Below, piece by piece: positions 6,869 through 51,869 of a DNA stretch of 64,000 nucleotides. The position numbers and the translations under genes are program-made. Below the pieces are notes generated by a model. It saw nothing but the letters and a program-made list of their open reading frames with translations. It had not been told where the DNA came from and searched no databases. Position 1 is the stretch's first letter. The number at the start of each line of letters is the position of its first letter. This DNA comes from an uncultured Colwellia sp. (GTDB lineage Bacteria > Pseudomonadota > Gammaproteobacteria > Enterobacterales > Alteromonadaceae), in contig CAJXYE010000014.1 in assembly GCA_913063325.1 (NCBI GenBank), positions 1 through 64,000 of the forward strand, read 5' to 3'.

Positions 6869-7051
6869 CATGCCTATGTAGATCAATCTGGAACAATTCA
6901 AAATTGGACGAAAACGTCATTCCAGTTATGTTTTAGGCTGACGTCACATGGATGTGATTTATTCGAGAATGCAGGACGCACATTCTCCTGAGTCCAAACT
7001 AAAAGACAATGGATCTTCGACAAAATACTTCGAAGATGACGTTATCAATGA
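6869..7051 (+). repeat. Long form of the A-M-B palindromic repeat, copy 1
   Basis: This 183-bp element lies between prsR and prsT. It holds module A (GTCATTCCAG...GGCTGACGTCA), a middle hairpin M with an AGAATG/CATTCT stem and module B (GGATCTTCGA...TCGAAGATGAC). A second copy of exactly the same length lies inverted at 51687-51869. By eye the two agree at about 85% of positions without gaps. A shorter form without M is at 49579-49662. Confidence 0.85.
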
Positions 7052-19701: not shown

Positions 19702-20152
19702 GGACCCTCGATCAGAGACTTCGAGGGTGACGAAGTGGAGAGACTTCGAGGGTGACGGAGTGGAGAGACTCCGAGGGTGACGGAGTGGGGAGACTATGAG
19801 TATGACAGAGTAGTGATCCTGAGGATTACCTATTGTTAATAAACTCTACCGTAATTCTTGTAGTATTTAATAGATACCATCATTCTTGTAATGTTTAATA
19901 GCTGCTGTCATTCTTGTAGTATTTAATAGATACCATCATTATTGTAATGTTTAATAGCTGCTGTCATTCTTGTAGTATTTAATAGCTGCTGTCATTCTTG
20001 TAGTATTTAATAGTTACCATCATTCTTGTAATGTTTAATAGCTACTGTCATTCTGTAGTATTGAATGACAAGAGTCACTCCAGTAGTGTTGATATCCGCC
20101 ACTCAAGTAGTGTTGTTACCCGTCATTCCAGTAGTTTTTTAGGCTGGAATCC
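19702..20152. repeat. Tandem arrays of half-elements: B-type (25 bp) then A-type (28 bp), ending in a full A module
   Basis: This fills the 496-base gap after the deacetylase gene. From 19702 a B module (GGACCCTCGA...TCGAGGGTGAC) is followed by three further right-half copies with a 25-base period. From about 19855 to 20090 there are left-half copies (TCATTCTTGTAGTATTTAAT and variants) with a 28-base period. They degrade into GTCACTCCAGTAGT copies and end in the intact A module at 20122-20152. There are no unique spacers. Neither period is a multiple of three. Confidence 0.88.
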
Positions 20153-20509
20153 AAAAAATTTAATTATAAAATCAAGGAAGATTTTAAATGAAAGCTCCGG
20201 CAGTATATATTTTAGCAAGTAAGTACAACGGTACTTTGTATATTGGTGTCACAAGTAATTTAGTCAAAAGGATATGGCAACATAAGAGTAACCTTGTCGA
20301 AGGGTTTACACATAAGTATAGCGTTCACTTATTAGTATACTTTGAGCAATATGACAGTATTGTTGATGCTATAAAGCGTGAGAAACAGATGAAAAAGTGG
20401 CAGAGAAGCTGGAAAATTAAGTTAATTGAGAAAAGTAACCCGCAATGGCGGGATCTATATTCAGAAATAGTTTAGAAATGGATCCTCGATCAGAGACTTC
20501 GAGGATGAC
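20122..20509 (+). mobile_element. Candidate autonomous element: module A - GIY-YIG gene - module B
   Basis: The segment starts with a perfect A module (GTCATTCCAG, then GGCTGGAATCC) at 20122-20152. It carries the GIY-YIG gene at 20188-20475 and ends with a perfect B module (GGATCCTCGA, then TCGAGGATGAC) at 20480-20509. Elsewhere in the window A and B are joined by a spacer of only about 20 bases (for example 29091-29165). The whole has GTCAT/ATGAC ends. That it is the parent of the short copies is inferred from this arrangement. Confidence 0.6.
20188..20475 (+). CDS. GIY-YIG nuclease family protein (small, single-domain)
   Basis: The 95-residue protein is one complete GIY-YIG domain. VYILASKYNGTLYIGVTSNL (7-26) holds the two motif strands, R29 lies in VKRIWQHK, KREKQMKKW is the basic helix and NPQWRDLY closes the domain. 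It is of the YhbQ-like type with no other domain. Such enzymes cut or nick DNA, but the job of these short proteins is not known. It lies alone between A and B repeat modules inside the exosortase block, unrelated to its neighbours. An AAGGA site lies about 12 bases before the ATG. Confidence 0.9.
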   Translation: MKAPAVYILASKYNGTLYIGVTSNLVKRIWQHKSNLVEGFTHKYSVHLLVYFEQYDSIVDAIKREKQMKKWQRSWKIKLIEKSNPQWRDLYSEIV

Positions 20510-20520
20510 AGAATGTTAAC

Positions 20521-20673
20521 GAAAACTATCGTCACTCCCGGGCTATTGAATGACTACCGTCACTCCCAGGCTATTGAATGACCACCGTCAATCTAGAGGT
20601 ATTGAATGGCCATCGTCATTCTAGAGGTATTGAATGACCATCGTCATTCCAGTAGTATTTTAGGCTGGAATCT
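20521..20673. repeat. Tandem left-half copies (28 bp period) ending in an A module
   Basis: Five copies of a GTCACTCCC/GTCATTCTAG half-repeat, each with TATTGAATG, follow each other every 28 bases and end in an intact A module (CATTCCAG...GGCTGGAATC) at 20641-20673. The remaining bases to the FemAB-like gene (20674-20801) show nothing recognisable apart from its leader. Confidence 0.85.
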
Positions 20674-23363: not shown

Positions 23364-24851
23364 ATGCAAAGTGTGAGTAGAGTACATAGCCTTTTTATCG
23401 TTTTAATATTAGCGTGGCTCTATATTTATTTTCAAGCACTTGTAAGTATGGTAAATGTTTGGCTTGGCTCTGAAACGTATAGCTATTGTTTTTTCATCCT
23501 ACCTATTTGTATATATCTAATATATGAAAAACAAGAACAGCTTGTGCGAGTAAAAATTAAACCCGCGCTATTCTTGCTCATACCTCTTTTACTTGGTCAG
23601 GCTATTTTTCTCCTTTCAGACCTTGCAAGCATAGACGTACTGACGCATTTATCTGCATACGGCAGCTTAATTTGTCTTATTGGCATTGTGTATGGTGTAG
23701 ACATACTTAAATTTTTGATGTTCCCATTAGGCTACTTAATATTAAGCATACCCATGGGAGAAGAGTTAATACCAGTACTACAAAATGTTACCGCCGATAT
23801 TAGTGTTTTTCTAGTTGAATTAATTGGGATACCGATTTATAGAGAAGGCTTATATCTATATATTCCAAATGGTACTTTTGAAGTAGCAGAAGCTTGCTCA
23901 GGAATACGATTTTTAATTTCAATGATCGCTATAGGTACACTCTATGCCTATCTATATTATCAGAGCATATGGCGCAGATTGGTTTTTGTGGCGTTAAGTT
24001 TAATTATCCCTATTATTGCCAATGGTATTCGCGCTTTTGGCATTATTTATGTCGGACATAAAACTGACATGGAACATGCTGTAGGGGCTGATCATTTAGT
24101 GTATGGTTGGGTATTCTTTTCTATTGTATTGCTCTTACTTATGGCTATAGGAAACTTTTGGCGGGAAGATTTACATGACAATACGAACGCTGTGGAATCG
24201 ACTGAAACACCTAAATCAGTGCCATTAAAGTTAATACAATTGCAGCCAACAATACAGACCACATTAATATTGTTATTGTTAACGCTATCCACACTCGCTT
24301 TTAAGCCTTTATATGAAAAACTAGTGGTAGGCCAGTATCAACAAATCACTACAGAAAGTCCTCTGCTAATATTTATAAAGCCGAAAGCTGATACAGAATT
24401 TTTGGTGAGTTTTAATCCTAACTTTGATAAAGCAGATAATACATATCAAGCAGAGGTGGTTCATAACAACACCAAGCTAGAAGTTTATGTAGCACATTTT
24501 TATGCAGACCATAAAGACAGTGAGCTAATTAACTGGGGTAATCGAATTTATGATATTGATAAATTTTCGATTATCAATAAGCAAAATATTACGTTAGAAA
24601 ATACAAATGGTGATATAAATGCGACCTTACTTCAGTTAGTGACTTTAAATGGCGTTAAAAGAAATTTAATTTATTGGTATGATGTGGATAATGTTAGAAC
24701 AAGCGACAAGCTAACAGTTAAAAAAACACAGTTATTAAACAAACTGTCAGGCGGATCAGGCGGTGGCAGTGTCGTTATACTGTCTATCAATGACAGACAA
24801 GTTACAATTAAACAAATAAAACAGATTGGTAAATCATTACCATGGTTATGA
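23364..24851 (+). CDS. xrtA: Exosortase A fused to EpsI-like domain
   Basis: This 495-residue membrane protein has eight or more helices. The three exosortase active-site residues are Cys178 in EACSGIRF, Arg223 in ANGIRAFG and His244 in ADHLVYGW. After a helix at about 290-310 a periplasmic EpsI-like domain (to 495) follows, the usual fusion for exosortase A. It should cleave PEP-CTERM tails, as on the protein encoded at 10078-10998, probably with transfer to a surface polymer. Its stop lies 10 bases inside the next gene's start. Confidence 0.95.
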   Translation: MQSVSRVHSLFIVLILAWLYIYFQALVSMVNVWLGSETYSYCFFILPICIYLIYEKQEQLVRVKIKPALFLLIPLLLGQAIFLLSDLASIDVLTHLSAYGSLICLIGIVYGVDILKFLMFPLGYLILSIPMGEELIPVLQNVTADISVFLVELIGIPIYREGLYLYIPNGTFEVAEACSGIRFLISMIAIGTLYAYLYYQSIWRRLVFVALSLIIPIIANGIRAFGIIYVGHKTDMEHAVGADHLVYGWVFFSIVLLLLMAIGNFWREDLHDNTNAVESTETPKSVPLKLIQLQPTIQTTLILLLLTLSTLAFKPLYEKLVVGQYQQITTESPLLIFIKPKADTEFLVSFNPNFDKADNTYQAEVVHNNTKLEVYVAHFYADHKDSELINWGNRIYDIDKFSIINKQNITLENTNGDINATLLQLVTLNGVKRNLIYWYDVDNVRTSDKLTVKKTQLLNKLSGGSGGGSVVILSINDRQVTIKQIKQIGKSLPWL

Positions 24852-27043
24852 ATGCATCTAGAAGTCTTGTGTGTCACCTAATTTATCGGTTTGATATTGG
24901 CGGGTTAGAACGTGTCATGGCTAATTGTATTAATGCAATGCAAGAAAACAATATTGAGCATGTAGTTATTGCTTTAACTGAAATTGGTGACTTCTCAAAA
25001 CATTTAAACCCTAATGTAAAAACCTATCAACTTAATAAAAAGTCAGGTAAAGATTTAGCCAGCCATTGGCGGCTATTTAAATTATTACGCAAACTAAAGC
25101 CTGACATATTACATACCTATAATTTGGCCGCACTGGAGTATCATCCCATTGCAAAATGTGCTGGTGTTAAAGGTCATATACATGCCGAGCATGGTAGAGA
25201 GATAAGTGATCCATTAGGATTAAATAAAAAGCATAACTTGTTACGAAAGTTAATATCCCCTTTTATTCATTATTTTGTACCAGTGTCCAGTGATTTACAA
25301 ACTTGGCTCATTGATGTTGTTAATATTTCGGGTGATAAAGTAAAGCTGATACATAATGGTATTGATATTGAAAAATTTTCATTTAAAAATCAGTTACACT
25401 CCGAATGTCAATTCCATGGTGTTCTCGACCGTCATTCCCGTGGTGTTATCGACCGTCATTCCCGTGGTGTTTTAGTCGGGAATCCAGAACTTAAAACTAT
25501 AGATTCCGGCCTAAGTGACAACCGGAATGACGATGTGTGTGACAACCGGAATGACGATGTGTGTGACAACCGGAATGACGATGTGTGTGACAACCGGAAT
25601 GACGATGGGTCTGCATGTCATTCCCGTGGTGTTTTAGTCGGGAATCCAGAACTTAAAACTATAGATTCCGGCCTATGTGACAACCGGAATGACGATGTGT
25701 GTGACAATCGGAATGACGATGGGTGTGACAATGGGAATGACGATGGGTCTGAATGTCATTCCCGTGGTGTTCTCGACCGCCATTCTCGAAGTGTTCTCGA
25801 CCGTCATTCCCGTGGTGTTTTAGACGGGAATCCAGAACTTAAAACAGTGGATTCCGGCCTAAGTGACAACCGGAATGACGATGGATGTGATAACCGGAAT
25901 GACGATGGATGTGACAATCAGAATGACGGTGGGTCTAAATATCATTCCCGAGGTGTTCTCGACCGTCATTCCCGTGGTGTTTTAGACGGGAATCCAGAAC
26001 TTAAAACAGTGGATTCCGGCCTATGTGACAACCGGAATGACGATGTGTGTGACAATCGGAATGACGATGTGTGTGACAATCGGAATGACGATGTGTGTGA
26101 CAATCGGAATGACGATGGATGTGACAATCAGAATGAAGATGGGTCTGAATGTCAATCCCAAGATGTTCTCGACCGCCATTCTCGAAGTGTTATCGACCGT
26201 CATTCCCGTGGTGTTTTAGACGGAAATCCAGAACTTAAAGCAGTGGATTCCGGCCTAAGTGACAATCGGAATGACGATGTGTGTGACAACCGGAATGACG
26301 ATGGGTCTGAATGTCATTCCCGAGATGACCTCGACCGACATTCCCAAGATGTTCTCGACCGTCATTCCCGAAGTGTTTTAGTCGGGAATCCAGAGCTTAA
26401 TGTTAAAGATTCCGGCCTAAATGACAACCGGAATGACGATGTGTGTGACAACCTAAATGACGACGGTTGTGATAATTGGAATGACGAAAGATGCATTAGA
26501 TTTATTCATATAGCTCGTTTTAATCCGGTTAAAGATCAACAAAACTTAATTAATGCTTTTGCCTTGTTAGTTCAAGAAAATTCTCACTTGCCTGAGCAAG
26601 TATGTTTAACCCTTGTTGGTGATGGCGATCTTACTAACGAATTGAAACAGTTAGTAATAGATAAAAAGTTGAATGATTTTGTGATATTTACAGGCGCGAG
26701 AGATGATATTCCAGCATTATTAAAAAGTGCAGATATTTTTGTTTTATCGTCGATTGCTGAAGGAATACCCATGACTATATTGGAAGCAATGGCAGCGAGC
26801 TTACCAATAATATCTACAGATGTGGGTGGTTTGTCAGAATTAGTTGAAAACGGAGTAAGTGGTTTATTAGTTGAGAAGCAAAATGCAACAGCACTGGCTA
26901 ACGCGATGCATAATTATGTTAAAAACCCTCAATTAATTAAGCCGCAAGGTGAACAAGCACATCAATTTATTGAGAAAAATTTTTCTGAAGCTGCAATGAT
27001 AAACGCTTATCAAAACTTATATCTACAATCTCTAGGGCAATAA
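24842..27043 (+). CDS. PEP-CTERM/XrtA glycosyltransferase (TIGR03088-like) with a 363-residue repeat insertion
   Basis: This GT-B (GT4) enzyme starts with VCHLIYRFDIGGLERVM. The C-terminal half has RFIHIARFNPVKDQQNLI, FTGARDDIPALLKSADIFVL and the EGIPMTILEAMAASLPII donor site. Between the two Rossmann halves, right after LIHNGIDIEKF, about residues 187-549 are made of repeat units (HSRGVLDR, GNPELKTIDSGL, CDNRNDDV). Without them the protein would be about 370 residues, the usual size. The insert is strongly polar, and the frame stays open across all 1.1 kb. ATG at 24842 is in frame with a second Met two codons later. Whether the enzyme is active with this linker is not known. Confidence 0.88.
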   Translation: MVMNASRSLVCHLIYRFDIGGLERVMANCINAMQENNIEHVVIALTEIGDFSKHLNPNVKTYQLNKKSGKDLASHWRLFKLLRKLKPDILHTYNLAALEYHPIAKCAGVKGHIHAEHGREISDPLGLNKKHNLLRKLISPFIHYFVPVSSDLQTWLIDVVNISGDKVKLIHNGIDIEKFSFKNQLHSECQFHGVLDRHSRGVIDRHSRGVLVGNPELKTIDSGLSDNRNDDVCDNRNDDVCDNRNDDVCDNRNDDGSACHSRGVLVGNPELKTIDSGLCDNRNDDVCDNRNDDGCDNGNDDGSECHSRGVLDRHSRSVLDRHSRGVLDGNPELKTVDSGLSDNRNDDGCDNRNDDGCDNQNDGGSKYHSRGVLDRHSRGVLDGNPELKTVDSGLCDNRNDDVCDNRNDDVCDNRNDDVCDNRNDDGCDNQNEDGSECQSQDVLDRHSRSVIDRHSRGVLDGNPELKAVDSGLSDNRNDDVCDNRNDDGSECHSRDDLDRHSQDVLDRHSRSVLVGNPELNVKDSGLNDNRNDDVCDNLNDDGCDNWNDERCIRFIHIARFNPVKDQQNLINAFALLVQENSHLPEQVCLTLVGDGDLTNELKQLVIDKKLNDFVIFTGARDDIPALLKSADIFVLSSIAEGIPMTILEAMAASLPIISTDVGGLSELVENGVSGLLVEKQNATALANAMHNYVKNPQLIKPQGEQAHQFIEKNFSEAAMINAYQNLYLQSLGQ
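25400..26490 (+). repeat. In-frame expansion of the palindromic repeat inside a glycosyltransferase gene
   Basis: Six composite units can be counted. Each has one to three left halves (CGTCATTCCCGTGGTGTT), a core with ATTCCCG/CGGGAAT and ATTCCGG/CCGGAAT stems, and two to five right halves (GTGACAACCGGAATGACGAT). The half-units have a 24-base period, so every change in number keeps the frame. The core encodes GNPEL-x2-x-DSGL. Confidence 0.95.
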
Positions 27044-28960: not shown

Positions 28961-29335
28961 ATTCCAGCAATGTCTTGGGCTGGAATCCAAACAACAACAA
29001 CTGGATCCTCGACAAGAAACTTCGAGGATGACGATGAGGTAGGTCTTGAGGCCGGGGACTGATTCGGCTTTCTAGTAATGATTCCACCCCGTCATTCCAG
29101 TAATGTCTTGGGCTGGAAACCAAACAACAACAACTGGATCCTCGACAAGAAACTTCGAGGATGACGACGAGATAGGTCTTGAGGCAGGGGGCTGATTCGT
29201 CATTCTAGTAATGATTCCACCCCCGTCATTCCAGTATTGTCTCAATCCCCGCCATTCCAGCAATGTCTCCACTCACGTCATTCAAGCAATGTCTCCACTC
29301 ACGTCATTCCAGTAGTATTTTAGGCTGGAATCCAG
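28961..29335. repeat. Tandem A-B elements (133-bp duplication) and 26-bp half-repeats
   Basis: This occupies most of the 509-base gap after the amidotransferase gene. Two copies of a 133-base unit start at 28961 and 29094. Each has module A, an AACAACAACAACT spacer and module B (CTCGACAAGAAACTTCGAG). From 29225 three left halves with a 26-base period follow, ending in a full A module (GGCTGGAATCCAG) at 29335. Confidence 0.9.
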
Positions 29336-31249: not shown

Positions 31250-32776
31250 TTGGAAGTTTTAGTGCGCATATTAACAATATCAAGCTTGTACCCAAACAAT
31301 AAAGATCCCAAACATGGCATTTTTGTTGAAACGCGCTTGCGCCATTTAGTTAAAGACTTTCCTGAAATAAAGCCAACTGTTATAGCCCCTGTACCTTGGT
31401 TTCCATTTTCTTCTAAACGCTTTGGTGAATATGCTAAATATGCTGGTGTTGTTAAACAAGAAGTTCGTAATGACATTGAAGTACATCACCCTAAATATCT
31501 AGTAATCCCCAAAATAGGTATGTACTTAACACCATTATTTATGAGCTGGGCAATAGCAAAAACAATTAAAAAATTAAGCGCTATTTCAGAAGAGCAAGAT
31601 CCTCGATCAGACACTTCGAGGATGACGGAAAGTGAAACTTCGAGGATGACGGAAAGTGAAACTTTGAGGATGACGGAAGATGAAACTTCGAGGATGACGG
31701 AAAGTGAAACTTCGAGGATGACGGAAGGTGAAACTTCTAGGATGACGGAAGGTGAAACTTCTAGGATAACGGAAGATGATCTCCGTCATTCCGATGCCTC
31801 CACCCGTCATTCCGGTTATGTCTTAGGCCGGAATCCAGAGCAAGATCCAACTTCATCGTTATTTTTTCTGGGAAAAACCTTGTCGTCATTCAAGCAGTTT
31901 CTTGGCCGGAATCCAAAAAAGCTCCCATTCGACTTAATCGACGGTCATTATTTCTACCCTGATGGTGTTGCCATCGCAAAAGCAGCTAAAAAATATAACA
32001 TCCCTTTTACTTGCACAGCTCGCGGCACAGACATTAACTTAGTACCTCAATACCCTAAAGCGTTAAGAATGATCAAGAAAGTGTTCAAGCAAGCATCACA
32101 TATGATGACTGTTTGCCAGGCACTTAAAGATGAAATGATAACCCTGGGTGCAGACAAAGATAAAATCTCTACATTAAGAAATGGTGTTGATCTTGATTTA
32201 TTTTCACCGTCTAATGAAGTTGAACAGCAAATAATAAAGGGTGAGCTTGGTATTAAGAATAAGCTTATTATGTCTGTTGGCTGGTTAATAGAAAGAAAAG
32301 GTCACTATTTAGTGATTGATGCTATGCAAAATATTGATAATGCCACCTTAGCTATTGCGGGAAATGGACCAGATTTAAACCAACTTAAAGCTCAAGTTAA
32401 AACACTTGGTTTGGAAAATAATGTTAAATTTTTAGGTTCATTATCTCAGCCAGAACTGAATAAATGGTTTAAAGCTGCTGATGTTACTGTGTTAGCATCA
32501 AGCAGAGAAGGGTGGGCAAATGTACTTCTAGAGTCTATGGCGTCTGGCACGCCTGTTGTTGCAACTAAAGTATGGGGCACGCCTGAGGTGGTTACAACAC
32601 AACATGCTGGGGTTTTGGTTGATAGAACGGTTGAATCAATAGGTGTAGGTATAAAAACACTTATGGGAAAAACGATTCAACGAGCTGCCACAAGAAAGTA
32701 TGCTGAAAAATTTGATTGGCAGTCTACATCTGCAGGGCAATTTAAAATATTTAATACAATTGTAAATAAAGAATGA
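31250..32776 (+). CDS. GT4 glycosyltransferase with in-frame repeat insertion
   Basis: The GT-B enzyme (508 residues) has ILTISSLYPNNKDPKHGIFV at its N-terminus, a middle part LIDGHYFYPDGVAIAKAAKK and CTARGTDINLVPQYP. The donor half has MSVGWLIERKGHYLVIDAM and EGWANVLLESMASGTPVV. Residues about 115-225 are repeat-derived (SETSRMTE units, then RHSGYVLGRNPE); without them it has about 400 residues, the usual size. No ATG fits: TTG at 31250 or GTG at 31262 is the start. It resembles glycosyltransferases of exosortase A loci. The next gene overlaps its end by four bases. Confidence 0.85.
   Translation: MEVLVRILTISSLYPNNKDPKHGIFVETRLRHLVKDFPEIKPTVIAPVPWFPFSSKRFGEYAKYAGVVKQEVRNDIEVHHPKYLVIPKIGMYLTPLFMSWAIAKTIKKLSAISEEQDPRSDTSRMTESETSRMTESETLRMTEDETSRMTESETSRMTEGETSRMTEGETSRITEDDLRHSDASTRHSGYVLGRNPEQDPTSSLFFLGKTLSSFKQFLGRNPKKLPFDLIDGHYFYPDGVAIAKAAKKYNIPFTCTARGTDINLVPQYPKALRMIKKVFKQASHMMTVCQALKDEMITLGADKDKISTLRNGVDLDLFSPSNEVEQQIIKGELGIKNKLIMSVGWLIERKGHYLVIDAMQNIDNATLAIAGNGPDLNQLKAQVKTLGLENNVKFLGSLSQPELNKWFKAADVTVLASSREGWANVLLESMASGTPVVATKVWGTPEVVTTQHAGVLVDRTVESIGVGIKTLMGKTIQRAATRKYAEKFDWQSTSAGQFKIFNTIVNKE
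31593..31925 (+). repeat. In-frame B-type array and A module inside a glycosyltransferase gene
   Basis: From GATCCTCGATCAGACACTTC there are seven right-half copies (ACTTCGAGGATGACGGAAAG and variants) with a 24-base period. They are followed by left halves GTCATTCCG, an A module with GGCCGGAATCCAG and a second partial one with GGCCGGAATCC. All of it is read in frame. Confidence 0.93.
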
Positions 32777-49578: not shown

Positions 49579-49662
49579 CGTCATTCCAGTTGTGTTTTAG
49601 GCTGGAATCCAAGGTAAAAGACAATGGTTCTTCGACAAAACATCTCGAAGATGACGGTATTA
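49579..49662 (+). repeat. Short A-B form of the palindromic repeat
   Basis: Module A (GTCATTCCAGTTGTGTTTTA then GGCTGGAATCC) is followed by AAGGTAAAAGACAATGG and module B (TTCTTCGACAAAACATCTCG). It has the same spacer end (AAAGACAATGG) as the 183-bp copy at 6869-7051 but lacks the middle hairpin M. This shows that M is a separable module. Confidence 0.88.
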
Positions 49663-51686: not shown

Positions 51687-51869
51687 TCATTGATATCGTT
51701 ATCTTCGAAGTCTTTTATCGAAGATCCATTGCTTTCTAGTTTGGATTCAGGAGAATGTGCCTCCTGCATTCTCTAATAGGTATCATCCATATGACGTCAG
51801 CCTAAAACACCTGTGGAATGACGTTTTCGAACAATTTTGAATTATTCTTGATTGATCTACATAGGCATG
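51687..51869 (-). repeat. Long form of the A-M-B palindromic repeat, copy 2 (inverted)
   Basis: On the minus strand this reads as the 183-bp element at 6869-7051, with the same length and ends (CATGCCTATGTAGATCAATC ... ATATCAATGA). It fills much of the 488-base gap between the acyltransferase gene and rfbB. The rest of the gap holds the putative rfbB promoter and otherwise nothing recognised. Confidence 0.88.

Follow-up and report, generated by a model that had tools for sequence, protein, structure and literature searches.

The nearest described counterpart of the locus analysed here is the Ssn/NTS system of Neisseria, where the GIY-YIG nuclease Ssn reportedly cuts NTS repeats as single strands. 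Ssn is said to have thousands of homologues, and the link between nuclease and repeat is reportedly already published for Neisseria. A literature search, which was poor in subscription papers and so does not imply absence, turned up none that dealt with Ssn or that connected GIY-YIG proteins with REPs. The CGTC-tagged REPs, which include dRS3 of Neisseria as CGTC-1, are one of two large REP superfamilies, and the available part of a 2013 survey describes them as apparently having no dedicated transposase and leaves open which enzyme, if any, drives them (PMC3733652).

The DNA examined is a 64,000-nt stretch (the window) of contig C14, an 88.6-kb piece of a Colwellia draft genome of 4.88 Mb in 126 contigs. 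It contains a stand-alone intergenic ORF for a 95-residue protein, and the original prediction that this complete gene lies directly between two hairpins, A and B, was correct for all three features and their positions (Table 1). A profile search gave GIY-YIG as the sole Pfam match of the product (E = 4.4e-15). As regards a group I intron homing endonuclease, the ORF is free-standing and the NCBIfam intron model scored only 19.3 of 56.05 bits. An alignment of 49 sequences revealed invariant Y7, Y18, R28, H32, E65, and N84, which retain the GIY-YIG catalytic set; judged from sequence, this set is intact in the window protein. The AlphaFold2 model (pLDDT 94.9) had as its nearest solved folds UPF0213 (1zg2), Slx1, and the GIY-YIG domain of UvrC, none below an E value of 0.001, and a sequence search of the PDB returned 1zg2 as its single match (E 0.0076). 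The window protein thus has the same fold as the UPF0213/YhbQ-like proteins, with 1zg2 as best PDB match, and it has the tyrosines, Arg, Glu, Asn, and fold of the GIY-YIG superfamily. NTS-like repeats flank the gene and occur in the genome as well. A gonococcal protein, which we take to be Ssn, is 61% identical to a Colwellia relative (the L009 protein) and lies among GTCATTCCCGCGCAGGCGGGAATCC hairpins; on the strength of this relative, its hairpins, and what is reported of Ssn, the window gene was assigned as a probable member of the Ssn kind.

Table 1. Positions of the nuclease gene, hairpins, arrays, and module M in the window
Feature	Position	Strand	Basis or context
GIY-YIG nuclease gene, 95 aa, Ssn-like clade	20188..20475	+	Pfam, alignment, fold model
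Hairpin A: CGTC tag, stem starts AT, tail CCA	20122-20152 (or 20121..20153)	+	sequence
Hairpin B, opposite orientation to A, tail toward gene	20480..20509	-	sequence
Outer B-type hairpin upstream of element	19702..19731	-	sequence
Outer A hairpin downstream	20643..20673	+	sequence
Tandem array, 25-nt unit, half-hairpins (head side)	19714..19813	.	repeat listing; half-hairpin by manual reading
Tandem array, 28-nt unit, head-side half-hairpins (GTCATTC...)	19846..20080	.	repeat listing; half-hairpin by manual reading
Tandem array, 28-nt unit, head-side half-hairpins, downstream of B	20526..20648	.	repeat listing
Six gene-less tail-to-tail pairs, 15-nt gaps, stems A-related, not identical	25455..26437	.	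in glycosyltransferase-like ORF 24842-27043
Gene-less A-B pair, 14-nt gap	29091..29165	.	sequence
Gene-less A-B pair, 15-nt gap	49580..49655	.	sequence
Gene-less A-B pair, module M inside A	6916..7040	.	sequence
Module M, 49-nt insert in hairpin 3' arm	6941..6989	-	mismatch search
Module M	51749..51797	+	mismatch search

Because B is inverted, the tails of both hairpins (the GGATYC side) point at the gene, whose ATG lies 35 nt from the end of A and whose stop codon lies 4 nt from the start of B. The tag of B is TGTC, not CGTC. The arrays of half-hairpins on either side (19714-20080 and 20526-20648) retain the head side (GTCATTC). At up to one mismatch, a head-type 10-mer matched the window 42 times and a tail-type 10-mer 21 times. 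Such arrays may have arisen through cutting and repair.

The same tail-facing geometry recurs on C14 without the gene. The contig carries 53 hairpins, and neighbors at most 150 nt apart form 17 tail-to-tail, 14 head-to-head, and 3 direct pairs. Gaps in the 17 tail-to-tail pairs, all gene-less, are 8 nt (4 pairs), 14 nt (5), or 15 nt (8), compared with 58-137 nt in the 14 head-to-head pairs, and the tail-to-tail pair, being the tightest, was therefore taken as the unit. The gene occupies this tail-facing slot, which is otherwise 8-15 nt wide on C14 and measures 327 nt from A to B with the gene inside. The prediction that A and B are elsewhere joined by about 20 bases was borne out in kind, with somewhat shorter gaps. 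A- and B-type stems were recognized in about 10 of the 17 pairs, with related stems in the rest (manual reading). Its second proposed linker, M, was recovered as a 49-nt module within the 3' arm of some hairpins. The 16 distinct copies (at most 18 mismatches) occupy a constant position in the arm, after GGATNC-like letters, and the module carries two small hairpins of its own. Module M was also seen at L003, L038, L039, L040, L042, L045, L051, L062, L224, L225, and L226 and is common to hairpin families with different stems.

Occupation of one slot on C14 both with and without the gene favors an autonomous element, in which A-gene-B would move itself as one unit and gene-less A-B pairs would be internally deleted copies. 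Gene-bearing and gene-less versions have common ends, as regards the hairpin ends. The sequences of the short gaps vary from cluster to cluster, and none clearly matches either end of the interior of the gene-bearing version; internal deletion is therefore not proven by the sequence.

Hairpins on C14 also lie within reading frames. The glycosyltransferase-like ORF 24842-27043 contains a large in-frame insert of hairpin repeats (CHSRGVL..GNPELK..CDNRNDD), which resembles the palindromic repeats inside Rickettsia genes, and a second glycosyltransferase-like ORF (31250-32776) contains an in-frame array of hairpins and half-hairpins (SETSRMTE repeats).

Six GIY-YIG matches were found in the source genome: three short paralogues, a 96-aa protein of the other GIY-YIG clade, a weak match, and a frame that we read as UvrC-like. 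The three paralogues are 53-65% alike, and each lies within its own hairpin family, giving three families in one genome. The exact form of A had 15 matches in the genome, all on C14, the contig of the gene, and a looser form had 35, with 25 on C14; the end of C14 lies seven bases beyond a hairpin, so unassembled pieces may hold further copies, and in a draft so divided the clustering on one contig may in part reflect the assembly. In G001, 14 of 28 generic-pattern matches are on the contig bearing its gene.

Among 39 genomes of the genus, 32 had a match at E ≤ 0.001. Close relatives of the window protein (57-100% identical) were present in 10, and the other 22 matched through a distant clade alone. 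This distant clade, at about 30-37% identity, is taken to be of the UPF0213/YhbQ-like kind. A GTCA-headed hairpin was located in at least one 500-nt flank at 12/12 loci of the close clade versus 1/21 of the distant GIY-YIG clade; base-shuffled 500-nt flanks contained one in 13 of 660 cases. At contig ends, L009 had hairpins on both sides, L019 had none, and L024 had none with just 25 nt available downstream. The number of repeats, proposed as a test, was higher with the gene in the genus: the median was 41 raw generic-pattern matches per genome with the gene (n = 10) and 6 without it (n = 29; Mann-Whitney p = 3e-5), where a reversed-pattern control gave 2-13 matches per genome.

Over the wider class, the gene was detected in 53 of 229 genomes at E ≤ 1e-15. 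Hairpin-rich genomes, defined by at least five hairpins of one specific stem pattern (in the reversed control, no genome exceeded 1 on either strand), numbered 28, 13 with the gene and 15 without a detected gene (hand count). With G000 excluded, 12 of 52 genomes with the gene were hairpin-rich, compared with 15 of 176 without it (odds ratio 3.2, p = 0.007). A link between the gene and such hairpins therefore exists, modest over the class, and the 15 hairpin-rich genomes without a detected gene indicate that it is not needed for their presence. Repeats abundant in many genomes that never had the gene had been named as evidence against the proposed relationship; this was encountered in part, as genomes with no gene detected today, in these 15 and in seven members of the genus with 17-36 matches (G006, G008, G012, G015, G019, G022, and G024).

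A scan of a collection of 84,980 species genomes yielded at least 511 confirmed relatives, of which the best 80 were used. Hairpins were sought within 400 nt of the gene at the 76 loci of these 80 with at least 200 nt on either side. These loci, from many phyla, had a hairpin upstream in 65 cases, downstream in 69, on both sides in 61, and on either side in 73, and control windows 1.6-2 kb away contained one in 10 of 133. The association of short GIY-YIG genes with GTCATTCC...GGAATCC repeats in other bacteria is therefore general. When four Colwellia records that repeat genus loci were removed, 69/72 loci still had at least one flanking hairpin and 57/72 had one on each side. The 27 testable class loci gave 21 upstream, 21 downstream, 20 on both sides, 22 on at least one side, and 5 on neither; without the one locus also among the 80, the values were 21/26 on at least one side and 19/26 on both. 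Ten loci without a GTCA hairpin (3 + 5, and 2 on plasmids) were inspected by manual reading, which revealed other-headed palindromic repeats at 7 and no palindromic repeats in the printed flanks of the other three (L152, L198, and L199). Collectively, these results indicate that gene and hairpins occur together across phyla.

These comparisons bear on an explanation in which the hairpins are transcription terminators or mRNA stabilizers and the nuclease gene is a passenger tolerating intergenic sites. The hairpins beside these genes are intergenic, and stem-loops in general could act on transcripts. The scarcity of hairpins beside the distant GIY-YIG clade and in the windows 1.6-2 kb away, together with the hairpin arrays inside open reading frames, makes this explanation very improbable.

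The orientation found on C14 also prevails elsewhere. At 90 two-sided loci (5 duplicates dropped), the nearest hairpins were tail-facing in 50, head-facing in 15, and in one direction in 25; one quarter would be tail-facing at random (p = 8e-10). The nearest upstream and downstream hairpins had a 5-nt stem core in common at 46/90 loci, so strict specificity for one stem was not seen. In 18 hand-picked genus hairpins, each of the 8 stem positions is paired throughout and 7 of the 8 have changed on both sides; the pairing percentage is partly by construction because the sequences were picked as hairpins. Hairpin stems vary by paired changes.

Hairpin loop class tracked the protein tree, with 13 changes against a shuffled mean of 21.6 (83 labelled rows; 0/200 shuffles as low). 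Taxonomic classes required 34 changes on the same tree, against a shuffled mean of 42.0 (0/200 as low). The few supported forks mean that co-inheritance alone could explain the match of loop classes to the tree. Gene transfer between phyla is likely from the tree as a whole, not branch by branch, strong support being confined to 5 of 84 inner branches; many scanned records are metagenome bins and may hold foreign contigs. As for vehicles, the search of viral contigs gave 80 pattern matches, none confirmed, and no relative was confirmed in phage records; a phage origin was accordingly left unsupported by these searches. A relative was present in 33 of 72,556 plasmid records, several of them of chromosome size, and plasmids therefore do not look like the main carrier. 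One plasmid relative (L202, Planktothrix agardhii plasmid p1) lies in GTCAT hairpins between an MmeI-like restriction gene and the DISARM gene drmA, whereas a related plasmid instead carries, at that position, a hypothetical gene and one for a PIN-domain protein. Another relative (L193, in G079) lies between exact 32-bp inverted repeats without a GTCAT head.

Sites with and without the element were compared at conserved junctions. The deacetylase-FemAB junction was followed through FemAB-like matches; the examination covered 19 of the 27, all with identities of at least 69%, the other 8 being at 27-36%. Gene and hairpins were present in 2 of the 19 genomes (G000 and G001) and both absent in 17, where the two genes are separated by 28-119 nt, or in one case 349 nt by ORF call. 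This joint absence, and the location of the gene at different loci in different genomes, are as an autonomous element would predict. At a second junction, named PfaC/PfaD-like after its neighboring genes, 24 genomes comprised 7 with gene and hairpins, 13 with neither, 1 cut by a contig end, and 3 with hairpins alone (G008, G019, and G020), so gene and hairpins are not always absent together. Read by eye, G003 has the order B-A-gene-B-A and G019 just B-A, an arrangement that loss of the gene through recombination of direct copies would produce, although gain into a single pair would look alike. The order B-A-gene-B-A was also found in two sequences from three gene-bearing records of Shinella plasmids (two identical over the query). 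In two related Shinella records the neighbor genes adjoin, with neither gene nor hairpin between them, and in Shinella RAC02 about 950 nt without a hairpin separates them; the occupied Shinella junction carries additional DNA of another kind on the left and therefore does not define where the element ends. Common homology among the 80 loci often stops near the hairpins, in copies too diverged to show a target duplication, and intergenic DNA at 6.9 kb in the window gave no useful alignment to G001. The comparison of occupied and empty sites that had been proposed for defining ends and target duplications thus supplied the empty sites, but no target duplication was found at sites this diverged.

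Copy number bears on autonomy as well. In the class sample, 43 of the 53 gene-bearing genomes have one copy, 6 have two, 3 have three, and 1 has five (hand tally). Eight of the 10 multi-copy genomes were examined. Three copies on three contigs of G133 are 91-96% alike, in a common block that ends at the 3' hairpin, and a further pair in the same genome is 93% alike; in G255, two copies are 88% alike. These copies favor self-movement, as do broken copies with internal stops in G001, G023, G083, G133, and G226, which are expected of a dispensable gene. All other pairs in the eight genomes are just 47-76% alike, and to the left of the G133 copies lies what we read as the beginning of a gene for an IS5-like transposase, so that these copies may have been moved by an insertion sequence. 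GIY-YIG chemistry is hydrolysis with no strand-joining step, and insertion would consequently need a partner. Movement of A-gene-B by itself, originally suggested as possible, is thus only partly supported: near-identical copies occur in 2 of 8 multi-copy genomes, one of them perhaps moved by an insertion sequence. The idea of an autonomous parent with deleted copies keeps its shared slot but is weakened by copies that are mostly single or divergent, and an autonomous element is, on balance, doubtful. At the locus of the window gene, the orthologue in G001 (L008/L062) has an internal stop and its hairpins remain; the gene seems to be decaying there while the hairpins stay.

The reading that best accommodates these data is that the gene probably encodes an Ssn-like site-specific nuclease targeting the surrounding CGTC hairpins, the pair working like REP/RAYT with a different enzyme. 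The original prediction of a new transposase-less system comparable to REP/RAYT keeps its analogy in this form but loses its novelty, given the link reportedly published for Ssn. The protein would fold onto and cut its own hairpin type in single-stranded DNA during replication, repair, or uptake of transforming DNA, a putative cutting step modelled on what is reported of Ssn. A nearby hairpin would serve as template for the repair of breaks at hairpins, whereby the repeats, and sometimes the enclosed gene, would multiply mostly near the gene, with tandem arrays of half-hairpins as possible by-products of the copying. The gene would enter new genomes by horizontal transfer, and recombination between flanking repeats would delete it and leave gene-less repeats.

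Cutting of incoming single strands could instead serve the host. Like Ssn, the nuclease would then restrict or modulate natural transformation by cutting incoming DNA at the repeats, thereby limiting or framing recombination, and the repeats would be kept for the host rather than being selfish. The function reported for Ssn and the gonococcal relative in its array of such hairpins speak for this possibility, as do hairpin clusters in an apparent exopolysaccharide region (by ORF reading), a plausible hotspot of gene exchange. The scattered presence of the gene (10/39 genus and 53/229 class genomes) and the existence of broken copies count against a fixed role in the host, and repeats within open reading frames look like uncontrolled spread; a role of this kind is possible but rather unlikely.

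For the preferred reading of an Ssn-like nuclease with its hairpins, the evidence points to a nuclease that partners hairpin repeats and perhaps spreads them, whereas self-driven movement is inferred rather than established. More speculatively, the hairpin-nuclease-hairpin unit of about 390 bp might be a phylum-spanning minimal mobile element without a DDE, HUH, or Y/S recombinase, spreading by nuclease-provoked copying, seeding gene-less pairs, and evolving new nuclease/hairpin pairings within one genome; we regard this as a tentative proposal. Nuclease-driven spread, if true, would allow mobile DNA to propagate with no classical transposase. With three nuclease/hairpin pairs, gene-less pairs, and empty sites in relatives, specificity, spread, and loss are testable in one genus.

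In comparison with known systems, the window gene resembles Ssn/NTS in encoding a short stand-alone GIY-YIG protein with GTCATTCC...GGAATCC hairpins around the gene. It differs in that one genome holds three paralogues and as many hairpin families, in its longer loops, in module M, in a tail-facing slot common to the 17 gene-less pairs, and in empty sites in relatives; its nuclease activity is predicted. The present data add the slot between facing tails, its counterparts without the gene, the empty sites, and the three pairs in one genome, some of which the Ssn paper may already cover. The hairpins share with the CGTC REPs, as far as the available part of the survey describes them, the CGTC tag, a stem starting with AT, a CCA tail, and many copies, and the TGTC of hairpin B is a variant mentioned there (PMC3733652). 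Loops here are about 9-12 nt compared with 4-5 nt, and the tight unit is tail-to-tail, whereas head-to-head dimers are the rule in the portion of the survey available (PMC3733652). REP/RAYT systems and REPINs, in the accessible sections of their description, are alike in their inverted hairpin pairs, a gene amid its own repeats, clusters of repeats near the gene, and several families per genome (PMC3116915). The RAYT phylogeny is described in those sections as largely congruent with that of the species (PMC3116915), whereas here the classes are scattered on a poorly resolved tree. A REPtron has a HUH transposase next to GTAG REPs; here the tag is CGTC and, where RAYT is given in those sections as a HUH tyrosine transposase, the enzyme is GIY-YIG (PMC3116915).
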